A stretch of DNA of 64,000 nt from Deltaproteobacteria bacterium (GCA_029552245.1 JAKPDW010000064.1:1-64000), one strand, 5' to 3'; positions 50,640 to 55,348 are shown, numbered from the stretch's first letter. Notes: generated by a model not told the origin, from the letters alone. Made by a program: numbers and translations.

Positions 50640-51680
50640 ATGAGCCTGTTCGATAAGCTCTTCGGCCGGTCCAAGCTGTCGAAGGAGATCTCCGCCTGCG
50701 AGTCGGCCCTGGAGAAGAGACCAAACGACCCGGTCATCCTCAAGAAGCTGGGGGATCTCTACCTCAAGGCCGAAGACATGAAGAACGCATCCGAGGTGTA
50801 CGTGCGCCTGGGGGAAGTCTACACCACCAGGGGGTTCTACCCCAAGGCGGTGGCCCTGTACAAGCAGGCCATCAAGATCAACGCCTCGTGGGAAGAGCCG
50901 TACGTGAAGCTCGCCGAGCTCTACCAGATGCAGGGGTTCATCCGCGAGGCGGCCACCCAGTACATGAGGCTCTCCGAGATGCTCGCCAAGAGCGGGGACA
51001 GCCTGGAGGCCACCATGTACATGCAGAAGGCCGCGGAGCTGGACCCGGCCATAACCCAGGTCAGCAGGCAGGTCCACTCCTTCAAGGTCAAGGAAAAGGC
51101 CATGGTCGAGCCGGTGCCCGGCTCTTCCCCGAGACCACAGGTCGAGCGGACGGACTTCTATGACCTCACCAAGGAACTCGAGGGTCATTTCGACTCCGCC
51201 CTGGAAGCGGCAGCCCAAGATCATCCCACCGACGGCGGGGAGGTCGAGGACACCACGGGCGTCGAGTCGGTGTTCAAGGCCATCGAGGAGAACGCCGCCA
51301 GGGAAGGCAAGGACGACCCCCTGTTCCTGTACAACATGGGCCTCGCGTACAGGGAGACAGGCCTCCTCGAGGATGCGGCGGACTCGTTCAGGAAGGTGCT
51401 GCTCTTGGGGGAGAAGCTCCTGGACGCACACATCATGCTCGGCATCACCTACAGGGAGTTGGGGCTCTTCAGCGAATCGCTGGATACGCTCAAGCAAAGC
51501 CTCGCCCTCGAAGAGGCCTCCCAGGAGATGAAGATGGGGATCCTCTACGAGATCGCACAGACATACAAGGCCATGGGCGACAACGAAAACGCTCTGTCCA
51601 TATTCCGCGAGATCCAGAAGGATCATCGGGATTTCAAGGACGTGGAGCTCGAGATCATCAGGCTGGCCGGGGGAGGATGA
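50640..51680 (+). CDS. TPR-repeat protein
   Basis: A 346-residue tetratricopeptide protein. TPR-like helices run from the N-terminus (DPVILKKLGDLYLKAEDMKNASEVYVRLGEVY, then YPKAVALYKQAIKIN and EEPYVKLAELYQMQGFIREAATQYM). A linker of about 60 residues is followed by more repeats (PLFLYNMGLAYRETGLLEDAADSF). TPRs bind partner proteins. It begins an operon, 1 bp before the MglA-like GTPase gene. The start at 50640 follows a purine-rich GAGAGAGAAT. No membrane segment. Confidence 0.85.
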   Translation: MSLFDKLFGRSKLSKEISACESALEKRPNDPVILKKLGDLYLKAEDMKNASEVYVRLGEVYTTRGFYPKAVALYKQAIKINASWEEPYVKLAELYQMQGFIREAATQYMRLSEMLAKSGDSLEATMYMQKAAELDPAITQVSRQVHSFKVKEKAMVEPVPGSSPRPQVERTDFYDLTKELEGHFDSALEAAAQDHPTDGGEVEDTTGVESVFKAIEENAAREGKDDPLFLYNMGLAYRETGLLEDAADSFRKVLLLGEKLLDAHIMLGITYRELGLFSESLDTLKQSLALEEASQEMKMGILYEIAQTYKAMGDNENALSIFREIQKDHRDFKDVELEIIRLAGGG

Positions 51681-51681
51681 C

Positions 51682-52872
51682 ATGGCGGTGATCAACTATT
51701 CCAAGAAGGAGATCTCTGCGAAGATCGTTTATTACGGACCCTCCCTGTGTGGAAAGACCACCAACATCCAGTCGATCTACACGAGCATCAAGCCCGAGCA
51801 GAAGGGGAAGCTCGTCTCGCTGGCCACCGAGGCGGACCGCACCCTGTTCTTCGACTTCCTTCCCATAGAGATCGCGAACATCCGGGGATTCAAGACGAGA
51901 CTCCACTTCTACACGGTCCCCGGCCAGGTCTACTACAACTCCACGCGGAGGGCGGTCCTGACGGGCGTGGACGGCATCGTCTTCGTCGCCGACTCCCAGC
52001 GGGACAAGATGGAGGAGAACGTCGAGAGCCTCAACAACCTGGAGGAGAACCTCAACTACTACGGCAAGAGCATCAAGACCCTGCCCATGGTGTTCCAGTA
52101 CAACAAGAGAGACCTCCCCGACGTCTCGTCGGTCGCCGAGCTCGAGCAGATCCTCAACCCCTACGGGTACCCCTTCTTCGAGGCGGTCGCGACGACAGGC
52201 GAGGGGGTCCTCGAGACCCTCACGAGGATAACCAAGCTGGTGCTGCAGCACATCGAGATGGGGACGAGCGGGAAGCAGCAGAGGCCTTCGTCCGTGCCCT
52301 TCGGGACGGCCCCACGGGGCATCCCCGAGCCCCCCGACGTCTTCCAGCAGAGACCCGCGCCTGCCGGGCCGGGTCCTGTCGAGCCCCCGCGGCCTCGCGA
52401 CCTCGCTGGTCCTGAACCGTTCGAGCCCGGCCGTGCATTCCAGGCCGAGAAGCCTTCCCGCCCGCTTGCTCTGGGACCGGAGGACGGCTCGATCGCAGCT
52501 CGCACGACCCAGGAGACAAGCGCGGCTGTGCGGCCCGTCGGCCAGGCCACCCCCTCAGACCTCCTCTCGGAGGCGGGGCCTTCTGCAACCTACGGAGAAC
52601 TTGCCGAGCCCGCCGGTGTCGAGCGGTCAGGGTACCCTCGCGAGACAGGCGGGCTGGAACCCGGTCTCGCCGCGAAACCGCTCGAGACCTTCCAGGACGA
52701 CACCGCCCGCGTCATGGAACAGGCGCTCGGCAGGATCCAGATCGTGGGCACGGAAAATGCAGAGATTCTGTCCGCCAACGCGCTCTGCATACCGATCAAG
52801 GTGAAGATAGAGGGGGATCAGAAGGTGTACAGGCTGGATTTGGCCATCAAGATAGACGGCCTCAAGCCGTAG
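51682..52872 (+). CDS. MglA-type Ras-like GTPase with C-terminal extension
   Basis: A 396-residue protein. Residues 1-195 form a Ras-like GTPase of the MglA group, with P-loop YYGPSLCGKTTNI, the switch region TEADRTLFFDFLP and QYNKRDLPD. MglA GTPases set cell polarity and motility in Myxococcus. A Pro-rich, disordered stretch of about 130 residues follows, then a predicted short domain ending VKIEGDQKVYRLDLAIKI. Classical MglA has no such extension. The operon context of TPR and DUF4388 proteins fits a polarity or signalling hub. Confidence 0.9.
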   Translation: MAVINYSKKEISAKIVYYGPSLCGKTTNIQSIYTSIKPEQKGKLVSLATEADRTLFFDFLPIEIANIRGFKTRLHFYTVPGQVYYNSTRRAVLTGVDGIVFVADSQRDKMEENVESLNNLEENLNYYGKSIKTLPMVFQYNKRDLPDVSSVAELEQILNPYGYPFFEAVATTGEGVLETLTRITKLVLQHIEMGTSGKQQRPSSVPFGTAPRGIPEPPDVFQQRPAPAGPGPVEPPRPRDLAGPEPFEPGRAFQAEKPSRPLALGPEDGSIAARTTQETSAAVRPVGQATPSDLLSEAGPSATYGELAEPAGVERSGYPRETGGLEPGLAAKPLETFQDDTARVMEQALGRIQIVGTENAEILSANALCIPIKVKIEGDQKVYRLDLAIKIDGLKP

Positions 52873-52881
52873 GGAGGCAGA

Positions 52882-54378
52882 TTGCAGGCGGATCGCTTCC
52901 TGACCGGCTTCACCCCGGACGTGACGATCCTCGGCACGGGCCTGTCATGGCCCGTGGTGAACGCCGTCCTGGGAAACTGTTACCTTTTCGTGATCGTCGT
53001 GTCCCTTTTGTGCTTTGTGATCGTGGGTGTCTTCTGCCTGGTCAAGTACGCCCCCCTCATGCTCCACGACATCAAAAACATCACCAACAACGAACTCCCA
53101 CAGGCCGGGCTCGTCGCCTGGATGTGCCTCGTCTTCGCCCTCCCCCTGTTCTTCGACGTGGGCGCAGGCATACTCGTGGCCTGGTGGTTCCTCGTTCTGT
53201 GGAACTACCTGTTGGCATCCGAGAAGCGCATCGTGTATGCATTCATCTTCGTCGTGCTCATATCGGGGTGGCTCACCCACGTGGCGGCGGGCTTCATAAC
53301 GTACCCCGAGACACAGCTCAGCAGGGAGATGTTCTCGGTCCAGAACCGGAGCGCGACCCAGGCCGACCTCGACTCCCTCGCCTCGTGGTCGCGCCAGCAC
53401 CCGGACGACGCCGAGCCCTTGAACGCGCTCGCGCTGCATGCCATCGCCAGGTCCGAATGGCAGGAGGGGATCAGGCTCCTTGAGGCCTGCATAGACCTGG
53501 AGCCCGCGAACCCCCGCTATTACAACCATCTCGCCGTCGCCCTCATGGGAACCGGCAGGACCAAGGAAGCCCTCAAGGCGCTCGACTACGCCGCCAAACT
53601 GAAGCCGGACTCCGTGATCTATTACTACAACATGAGCAGGATCTACCAGTCCACCTACAACTTCTACGAGAGCGAAAGCGCGATCGCACAGGCGAGCGGG
53701 ATAGACTCCAGGCTCGTCAGGCAGCTCCTTGACACAGAGAACAAGGTAGGCAGGACCCGTCTCATCCTCGAGAAGACCCCGGTCTCGAGGTACCTCGCCC
53801 GGCAGATGAGGCCTTCCCCTGTCCTCGGGGAGGCCGCGGACGCCTTGTGGCACTGGGTCTTCGGGCTGATACCGAGACGCGCCTCGGCCTTCTTGGGAGC
53901 GGGGTTCTTCGTCACCCTCCTCCTCATGAGCTTCATTCCCAGGGACAAGTTCTCGAAGCAATGCGCCCGGTGCGGGAAGGTGTACTACTCCGGCACGTTC
54001 ACGAAATCCGGCAGCCCGATGTGCCTGCAATGCTCGTGGCTCGACTCGAAGGCCAAGAAGCAGGAAGTGACGATCGTCCAGCACAAGTCGGAGGACATCA
54101 GGAGTTTCAAGGCCCAGAGCTTCCGGAAACTCCTCAGGCTCGACATGGTCCTGCCGGGGCTGGGCTGCTTCATGGCCCACCGCACGGGCACGGCCCTCAT
54201 CAGGCTCGTCGTCCTGTGCGCATGCCTCGCGGCGCTCGCCATGGGCAGCGGCGTCATCGTATCCTTCGTGCCGGTCCACGTAAACGCCGGGCTTGCGATT
54301 CGAACGGCTGCCGTAGTCGTCTGGGCGTCACTCCTGCTGAGGGTGTACAGGCGCCCTCCCCTCAGGTTCGGAGGCTGA
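52882..54378 (+). CDS. TPR membrane protein with zinc ribbon
   Basis: A 498-residue protein starting with TTG after AGGGAGG. The N-terminus holds about four transmembrane segments (roughly residues 20-135). A middle domain carries TPR repeats (EPANPRYYNHLAVALMGTGRTKEALKAL). A further membrane segment lies near residue 340. A zinc ribbon CARCGKVYYSG...MCLQC comes next (near residue 358), followed by two C-terminal hydrophobic helices. It sits 9 bp after the MglA-like gene. It may anchor the TPR/GTPase complex at the membrane. Confidence 0.8.
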   Translation: MQADRFLTGFTPDVTILGTGLSWPVVNAVLGNCYLFVIVVSLLCFVIVGVFCLVKYAPLMLHDIKNITNNELPQAGLVAWMCLVFALPLFFDVGAGILVAWWFLVLWNYLLASEKRIVYAFIFVVLISGWLTHVAAGFITYPETQLSREMFSVQNRSATQADLDSLASWSRQHPDDAEPLNALALHAIARSEWQEGIRLLEACIDLEPANPRYYNHLAVALMGTGRTKEALKALDYAAKLKPDSVIYYYNMSRIYQSTYNFYESESAIAQASGIDSRLVRQLLDTENKVGRTRLILEKTPVSRYLARQMRPSPVLGEAADALWHWVFGLIPRRASAFLGAGFFVTLLLMSFIPRDKFSKQCARCGKVYYSGTFTKSGSPMCLQCSWLDSKAKKQEVTIVQHKSEDIRSFKAQSFRKLLRLDMVLPGLGCFMAHRTGTALIRLVVLCACLAALAMGSGVIVSFVPVHVNAGLAIRTAAVVVWASLLLRVYRRPPLRFGG

Positions 54379-54379
54379 C

Positions 54380-55348
54380 ATGGCGCTTCTGGGCACACTC
54401 AAGGGTTTCGGTGTCACGGAGATCTTCCAGCTGATCTCCCAGCAGATGAAGACGGGGTCTCTCGTGCTCACCTCGACGAAGGCCACGGTCACCATCAACT
54501 TCGAGAACGGGGTCATCGTCGGTCTGAGTTCGAACACATGGGAACGAGACCCCATGGCCGACGTGCTCATGAAGGCGGGGTTCCTCCAGGAGAAGGACTT
54601 CAAGGCCGCCCTGGAGAGCGCCAAGAAGAACTCCCAGCCCTGGTACGAGATCCTCGTATCCAAGGGCCAGCTCAAACGGGTGTTCGTGGAGAGGGCGTCG
54701 AACACCGTCATCAGGCAGACGCTGCTGGAGATATTCCAGTGGCCCGAGGGGGGCTACCGGTTCGAGGACTGGGAAGGCGAACACGAGAGCATGCTCACCT
54801 GCCACATACCCACCGAGAGCGCCATCCTCGATACCCTCCGCATCATCGACGAGTGGCCGACCATCAAGCAGAAGATCCCGCCGGTCGACTACTGCCCGGT
54901 GACCGTGATCCCCATCACGGAGGAGATCGTCAAGCACCACGAGCTCTCGGAGGTCGACCTCCACATCTACGACCTGATCGACGACAAGAGGACGGTCGAG
55001 AGGATCGTGCGCGAATCCCTCGAACCGCCGTTCGAGGCCCTCAGCTCGCTCGTGAGGCTCATGGACCTGGGCCTCGTGGAGGTGTTCCCCCAGGGCGCAT
55101 CGGATGTCAGGGACTCGACCATCGCCCGCGGGAAGACCATCGCGGGCCTGAAGAAGGCGGCCCTCTACGGCGCGTTCGTCCTGTGCTTGGCCGCACTCGC
55201 CTTTTCGGGACAGTCGAGGCTGCTGCACCAGGACCTGGTGCCGAAGGTGATCGTCTCGCACCTCGAATACCAGCACAAGCTCGCCGCGACGTTCAGCGCG
55301 CCCGGGCCAGGGCCTTCAGGGACAGATACAGGTAGTGGTGGCCGTTGA
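54380..55348 (+). CDS. DUF4388 (PATAN-type) protein with a C-terminal membrane helix
   Basis: A 322-residue protein with an N-terminal DUF4388 domain (LGTLKGFGVTEIFQLISQQMKTGSLVL, residues 1-100), a second alpha/beta region, and a hydrophobic helix at about residues 262-280 (ALYGAFVLCLAALAFSG). DUF4388 proteins are found in delta-type bacteria with response regulators and MglA-like GTPases. It starts 1 bp after the membrane TPR gene. Its last 56 bp overlap the convergent recJ gene. Confidence 0.85.
   Translation: MALLGTLKGFGVTEIFQLISQQMKTGSLVLTSTKATVTINFENGVIVGLSSNTWERDPMADVLMKAGFLQEKDFKAALESAKKNSQPWYEILVSKGQLKRVFVERASNTVIRQTLLEIFQWPEGGYRFEDWEGEHESMLTCHIPTESAILDTLRIIDEWPTIKQKIPPVDYCPVTVIPITEEIVKHHELSEVDLHIYDLIDDKRTVERIVRESLEPPFEALSSLVRLMDLGLVEVFPQGASDVRDSTIARGKTIAGLKKAALYGAFVLCLAALAFSGQSRLLHQDLVPKVIVSHLEYQHKLAATFSAPGPGPSGTDTGSGGR

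Follow-up and report, generated by a model that had tools for sequence, protein, structure and literature searches.

How is an MglA-like GTPase put to use in a bacterium in which no MglB is detected? Bacterial polarity is commonly explained by a cycle of MglA-GTP and the GTPase-activating protein (GAP) MglB, and the question is raised by four plus-strand genes at positions 50640-55348 of a 64,000-nucleotide stretch of DNA from a Deltaproteobacteria bacterium (GCA_029552245.1, JAKPDW010000064.1:1-64000; this whole stretch is referred to as the window). The genes encode a TPR protein (TPR1), an MglA-like GTPase with a C-terminal extension, a membrane TPR/zinc-ribbon protein (TPRm), and a protein with a membrane helix and DUF4388 (PF14332), which we take to be the PATAN domain. 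An initial annotation of the sequence had described them as one signalling cassette lacking an MglB-type activator, in which a partner may control the GTPase, and had proposed a polarity or envelope-signalling system not yet described. We consider it probable, at roughly 60%, that the four genes make up a module for type IV pilus/polarity control akin to the Myxococcus MglA-SgmX system and devoid of the MglB GAP. The functional claims made here derive from homology with the Myxococcus and Bdellovibrio systems.

The reported architecture held up. Open reading frame calling gave intergenic gaps of 1, 9, and 1 bp, within the 1-9 bp range originally given, and domain searches, alignments, and a structural model agreed with the assignment of the four products, including the 200-residue extension of the MglA-like protein, the zinc ribbon of the membrane TPR protein, and the helix of the DUF4388 protein. 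In a neighbourhood check, the order TPR1-MglA-TPRm-DUF4388 was kept in 20 fetched loci from the family of the window's genome (in one of them the DUF4388 gene was cut at the contig end). Collinearity of the four genes was counted in 21 family loci and held for each family genome with MglA. No fewer than five further families of the same phylum also have the cassette, so that the four genes do co-occur elsewhere. TPRm and MglA were present in all sampled family genomes but G006, which gave no TPRm hit, and G015, which gave a short TPR match only; the completeness of these two is 77 and 82%, respectively. Outside the family, complete cassettes were found in G074, G097, and G049 (loci L059, L063, and L072), and in G086 (L128) MglA-TPRm-DUF4388 begins at the contig end, leaving TPR1 out of view. 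TPRm of L059 and L128 was missed by the first BLAST search and recognised via profile and position. In G064 the cassette is split, TPR1-MglA being on one contig and TPRm-DUF4388 on another. Six further genomes from a separate collection (L171-L174, L177, and L180), labelled Deltaproteobacteria, Thermodesulfobacteriota, Proteobacteria, Candidatus Tharpella, or just bacterium, also hold the cassette.

As an out-of-sample test, 395 genomes from the phylum were screened for DNA that encodes the P-loop YYGP[A/S]xCGKTTN, with neighbouring genes ignored. Outside the family it returned 19 loci in 18 genomes new to the first sample, and 17 of the 19 showed TPR1-MglA-TPRm-DUF4388, some with a gene cut at the contig end; the other two were L322, which ends after MglA, and L315, which has TPR1-MglA only. 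Apparently five of the 18 genomes underlie loci seen earlier, for which the Roadblock status is new and the gene order is not. The four genes are thus one conserved cassette, beyond chance. It is very improbable that they are adjacent merely through common descent and transcription without belonging to a single pathway: much of the flanking synteny (holA, rpsT, dppFD, recJ) is likewise conserved within the family, but outside it the flanks change and the four genes remain together in order, and gaps of about 1-20 bp are retained in family genomes despite TPRm identities of 33-55%.

The strongest clue to the reason for the missing MglB is residue 21 of the GTPase, which was overlooked in the initial annotation. 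Residues 1-195 match Myxococcus xanthus MglA at E 3e-71, and the G-domain has the features of the MglA family, namely the TVPGQ motif (Thr78), the intrinsic Arg53 finger, and Gln82; Arg53 and Gln82 are kept in cassette MglA. Residue 21 is Ser or Ala in 38/38 alignment rows of cassette MglA (about 33 of them distinct, as some represent one contig drawn from two collections), with Ser in every family cassette and Ala in the non-family cassettes. Roadblock-coupled MglA has Gly21 in 68 of 70 cases, the two with Ala21 being L163 and L233, and long MglA having neither cassette nor Roadblock coupling has Gly21 in 24 of 28. In a tree calculated with column 21 masked, cassette MglA formed a single clade (Shimodaira-Hasegawa-like approximate likelihood ratio test, 97), and the label required one change. 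Thus, Ser/Ala21 is most simply explained by one ancient event retained since, and not by many independent ones. Within the family, identity to the window's sequence is 86-94% for the MglA G-domain, 33-55% for TPRm, and roughly 50-70% for recJ, which points to unusually strong constraint on the MglA switch. The exchange G21V is known to reduce hydrolysis by MglA (PMC3000849). In Bdellovibrio, Ser21 occurs without MglB, and Ala/Ser21 was reported for five of nine species having MglA but no MglB (PMC3983030). As the latter study already noted the correlation, novelty lies in how strong it is and in its link to the cassette.

In line with the earlier claim that MglB is absent, the Roadblock family PF03259 had no hit at E<=1 in the genome to which the window belongs, nor any at E<=0.01 in the 24 family genomes searched. 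Outside the family, PF03259 was found in 35/43 genomes with MglA versus 3/32 without MglA; the eight MglA genomes lacking it include the cassette genomes G049, G074, G086, and G097. It was also found in 0/18 genomes of the P-loop search (Fisher p 1e-9 versus the 35/43 rate, kinship uncorrected). G072, which has an Ala21 MglA of another operon type, carries a Roadblock gene. The cassette therefore falls outside the mglBA modules, having neither a PF03259 Roadblock nor Gly21, and combines Ser/Ala21 with MglB absence as in the Bdellovibrio type (definition in PMC3983030).

A diverged Roadblock-type protein encoded elsewhere in the genome could act on the GTPase in trans, which we regard as rather unlikely. 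The candidate is a 105-residue protein from the minus strand of contig C53 of the same genome (161559-161873; L074:11559-11873), whose gene adjoins two DUF4388 genes within a DUF4388/REC-DUF4388 cluster. It is conserved in 16 of the 19 family genomes tested, its secondary-structure pattern (GVxGYxI...; ...TMLMVLSSTRVNLALLRM) looks Roadblock-like by eye, and PATAN and MglB genes are frequently neighbours (PMC4316618). However, no significant match emerged when the profile of the protein was compared with that of 70 MglB sequences, whereas half-sets of the MglB sequences matched each other with a probability of 99.95. Pfam returned no Roadblock hit for the protein even at E 10, its gene is not beside mglA, and Ser/Ala21 should by itself blunt a GAP. 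On the negative profile comparison the protein was rejected as a Roadblock and is retained as a caveat.

The TPR partner points to the output of the module. TPR1 consists of two TPR blocks flanking a conserved non-TPR stretch (...TDFYDLTKELE...GVESVFKAI...), and neither a signal peptide nor a membrane helix was seen in it. Residues 6-137 match residues 12-143 of SgmX (72 bits), and residues 152-346 match residues 816-1017 (52 bits). When the whole genome was searched with the SgmX model, the top two matches were the two halves of TPR1, and the next protein scored 26 bits. The SgmX family NF052243 was matched by 18/18 aligned TPR1 homologues and was the top family for the window's TPR1 and for four distant homologues scanned singly. 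In SgmX, TPR12-14 bind directly to MglA-GTP and are lost when the protein (1060 residues) is truncated after Gly802 (PMC7668184); the eight N-terminal TPRs activate pili, and the three middle TPRs bind FrzS (PMC11580455). From the match at both ends and the known roles of these ends, TPR1 resembles SgmX minus its middle. Judged by its sequence, TPR1 is more likely an effector of the GTPase than a regulator, and the earlier suggestion that a partner controls the GTPase is weakened for TPR1; the membrane pair is proposed below as input or anchor. An effector of this kind makes type IV pilus or polarity output likelier than a new envelope pathway, so that the polarity half of the proposed polarity/envelope-signalling role gains and the envelope half loses. 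The description as a system not yet described holds only in part, as MglA-SgmX of Myxococcus and MglA(Ser21)-Bd2492 of Bdellovibrio, the latter without MglB, are close precedents.

The cassette shares with M. xanthus MglA-SgmX (PMC7519303, PMC7668184, PMC11580455) an MglA G-domain of about 55-60% identity and a TPR partner matching both the activating N-terminus and the MglA-binding C-terminus of SgmX. It differs in that TPR1 comprises 346 amino acids without the FrzS-binding middle region (SgmX, 1060), the genes lie side by side, MglA bears Ser/Ala21 and a tail of 200 residues, MglB is undetected, and TPRm and DUF4388 are added. The nearest precedent is Bdellovibrio bacteriovorus MglA (Bd3734), with Ser21, a genome without MglB, and a TPR protein of about 350 amino acids (PMC3983030). 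This partner, Bd2492 (353 amino acids), was shown to bind MglA, and pilus formation in Bdellovibrio requires MglA (PMC3983030). Bd2492 is encoded in the TamAB operon apart from mglA, whereas TPR1 neighbours dppD and mglA in the window and most family loci; a tailed MglA, TPRm, or a DUF4388 cassette is not described for Bdellovibrio, where RomR is present. Canonical mglBA modules and actinobacterial conservons (PMC4316618) likewise use an MglA-family GTPase as central switch. In contrast to these, the cassette has neither an adjacent Roadblock gene nor a CvnA histidine kinase, and an effector-type TPR gene occupies the upstream slot. Membership in the conservons was rejected because the cassette has no histidine kinase, Roadblock, or CvnC genes.

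The genome of the window has the corresponding machinery: PilT and PilM family matches were obtained on contig C43, where, by eye, the surrounding open reading frames look like pilM-Q and pilB-T-C. Outside the family, strong PilT matches were found in 42/43 genomes with MglA versus 19/32 without MglA (p 3e-5, kinship uncorrected). In the sister family f2, PilT was present and absent in eight and none of the genomes with MglA, respectively, versus two and eight of those without, with kinship ignored. The idea that cassette and pilus genes are physically linked was discarded, as the PilT and PilM genes lie on other contigs than the window.

The two membrane proteins add a possible envelope side to the module. 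TPRm has about seven hydrophobic cores or membrane helices, a TPR block, and a Cys4 zinc ribbon whose residues C361, C364, C381, and C384 are invariant in all 25 homologues aligned. About four N-terminal helices are followed by the TPR block (~142-328), a helix, the zinc ribbon with a basic linker (~351-402), and two helices. The Lys/Arg content is 20-25% in the short loop before the fourth hydrophobic core, 18-20% in the zinc-ribbon linker, and 14-18% at the C-terminus, the TPR block has a net negative charge, and distant homologues start with signal-peptide-like stretches. From the charge pattern and these starts, the TPR block is predicted to be periplasmic and the zinc ribbon cytoplasmic. 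A Foldseek search with TPRm gave mostly generic TPR and MamA matches. The DUF4388 protein scored 79.9 bits with PF14332 (cut-off 25) and has a single membrane helix near residues 257-280; its helical insert matches the MshEN modules of PilF, PilB, and MshE (PilF, 6f8l, E 5.5e-23, profile match). Binding of cyclic di-GMP by this insert was rejected, as the motif model NF053729 gave 12.7 bits at a cut-off of 38. In cyanobacteria, type IV pili are under the control of PATAN proteins, of which PixE reportedly binds PilB1 (PMC7690835). The cyanobacterial response regulators PixE and PixG thus resemble the window's protein in the tie of a PATAN-type domain to pilus control; the latter differs in lacking a receiver domain, in its membrane anchor, and in being encoded beside MglA.

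The TPRm-DUF4388 pair is more widespread than the cassette and stands without an adjacent MglA in most non-family genomes, in housekeeping contexts such as guaB-pair-guaA and a PhoH/HD-hydrolase/lnt region (gene names by eye). These contexts, the predicted periplasmic location of the TPR block, and the signal peptides of TPRm homologues would fit an ancestral envelope-sensing or maintenance core of the phylum, which MglA and TPR1 joined later to serve an envelope process and not pili. We hold such an origin to be doubtful, because genomes with TPRm tend to carry MglA (17/20, p 0.004), all 20 have PilT, and TPR1 is SgmX-like.

In addition to its G-domain, cassette MglA has a structured tail. 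An AlphaFold2 model built with 24 relatives had very low confidence for residues ~198-346 and a four-stranded beta domain at 352-390 with a predicted local distance difference test (pLDDT) score of 95-97. In the tail alignment the linker was variable and the last ~45 residues were conserved, also in other families. The extension is therefore best described as a flexible linker followed by a small folded domain. The matches listed by Foldseek for the MglA model were all GTPases (MglA and Ras-type folds), with none to the beta tail.

In the pilus/polarity module proposed here, Ser/Ala21 would slow GTP hydrolysis, leaving MglA mostly GTP-bound and able to bind the C-terminal half of the adjacent TPR1. 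Binding would release the N-terminal TPRs of TPR1, which could then localise the pilus extension machinery (PilB) or activate it. With the GAP cycle missing, place and timing of MglA action would be set by the tethered beta tail and the membrane pair: the tail may tether MglA to TPRm or DUF4388, and the TPRm-DUF4388 pair may anchor MglA-TPR1 at an envelope site and relay a periplasmic signal. More tentatively, cassette MglA could be a natural, ancient Gly12-substituted Ras-like switch, the state of which is set by the tethered beta domain and TPRm-DUF4388 without a Roadblock GAP.

Several observations weigh against a pilus/polarity module without a GAP. The cassette is not adjacent to pilus genes, and the family member G021 has the cassette without a strong PilT match in a genome that is 93% complete. 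TPR1 scores 120.6 bits versus an SgmX equivalog cut-off of 1800 and has 346 amino acids versus about 1060, for which reason it is named SgmX-like and not SgmX; furthermore, the similarity of repeats to one another can inflate TPR scores. The TPRm-DUF4388 pair is found in three genomes without MglA (G048, G053, and G090). G064, with its split cassette, retains a Roadblock gene as the only one among the checked Ser/Ala21 cassette-type genomes, and Ala21 is present in two Roadblock-coupled MglA proteins. GTP hydrolysis by MglA may persist, given that both Arg53 and Gln82 are intact. Finally, the link to PATAN proteins presupposes that PF14332 is the PATAN domain.

An MglA clade that has lost the Roadblock GAP, has fixed a Gly12-type change, and is encoded in one operon together with a minimal SgmX would demonstrate that a GAP cycle is dispensable for polarity or pilus control. 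The substitution at residue 21 is of the same kind as that which jams human Ras 'on', and what had been a remark on a single species (Bdellovibrio, Ser21, no MglB) becomes a statistically testable rule. The minimal MglA-effector pair (346 versus 1060 amino acids) would be useful for structural work, and two uncharacterised membrane proteins are flagged as candidate replacement regulators. If true, control by the beta domain and TPRm-DUF4388 would be a new way to regulate a bacterial small GTPase, leading from a periplasmic sensor to pilus polarity. The features of the cassette are compiled in Table 1.

Table 1. Features of the TPR1-MglA-TPRm-DUF4388 cassette in window coordinates.
Feature	Coordinates	Strand	Properties
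TPR1	50640..51680	+	346 amino acids; SgmX-like TPR protein ('mini-SgmX'), predicted cytoplasmic
MglA with tail	51682-52872	+	396 amino acids; G-domain and 201-residue extension
MglA GTPase domain (residues 1-195)	51682..52266	+	P-loop GPSLCGKT with Ser21; Arg53 and Gln82 kept
MglA codon 21 (TCC, Ser)	51742..51744	+	Ras Gly12 position
MglA linker	52267..52734	+	Pro-rich in the window, predicted disordered; length and sequence differ among species
MglA C-terminal beta domain, ~45 residues	52735..52872	+	sole conserved tail segment; model pLDDT 95-97
TPRm	52882..54378	+	498 amino acids, TTG start; membrane TPR/zinc-ribbon protein
DUF4388 (PATAN-type) protein	54380..55348	+	322 amino acids; MshEN-like helical insert, C-terminal membrane helix

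A promoter scan gave no signal above chance, and an Rfam scan of the window returned no element. At its 3' end the DUF4388 gene is overlapped over 56 bp (55293-55348) by the convergent recJ on the minus strand, and a like overlap was found again in most family loci. The lone TPRm-DUF4388 pair sits between guaB (IMP dehydrogenase) and guaA (GMP synthase) in L057, L061, L064, L065, and L066 and beside guaB in L060 (gene names by eye). Contig C56 of the window's genome encodes a 459-residue protein with DUF4388, a DnaJ domain, and TPR repeats (L075:8779-10158, plus strand).

A second class of extended MglA, mostly with Gly21 and in a different operon, was observed in L126, L127, L129, L131, L133, and L134. 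It is located after an unknown protein, often of about 350 amino acids, with coaX- and elongation-factor-G-like genes nearby in several loci, and the genomes also have Roadblock. The C-terminal ends of this class look similar to those of cassette MglA by eye, so the tail may predate the cassette. In L182, L229, L235, L237, and L239 (Planctomycetota, a BRC1 bacterium, and one further bacterium), a Roadblock gene comes after that of an extended MglA, and four of these five loci also encode a nearby DUF4388 protein of up to about 1100 amino acids. A metagenome-assembled genome of Geobacteraceae contains a second MglA-like gene (L234:6230-7066, minus strand) with the degenerate P-loop GPAGCGKN.

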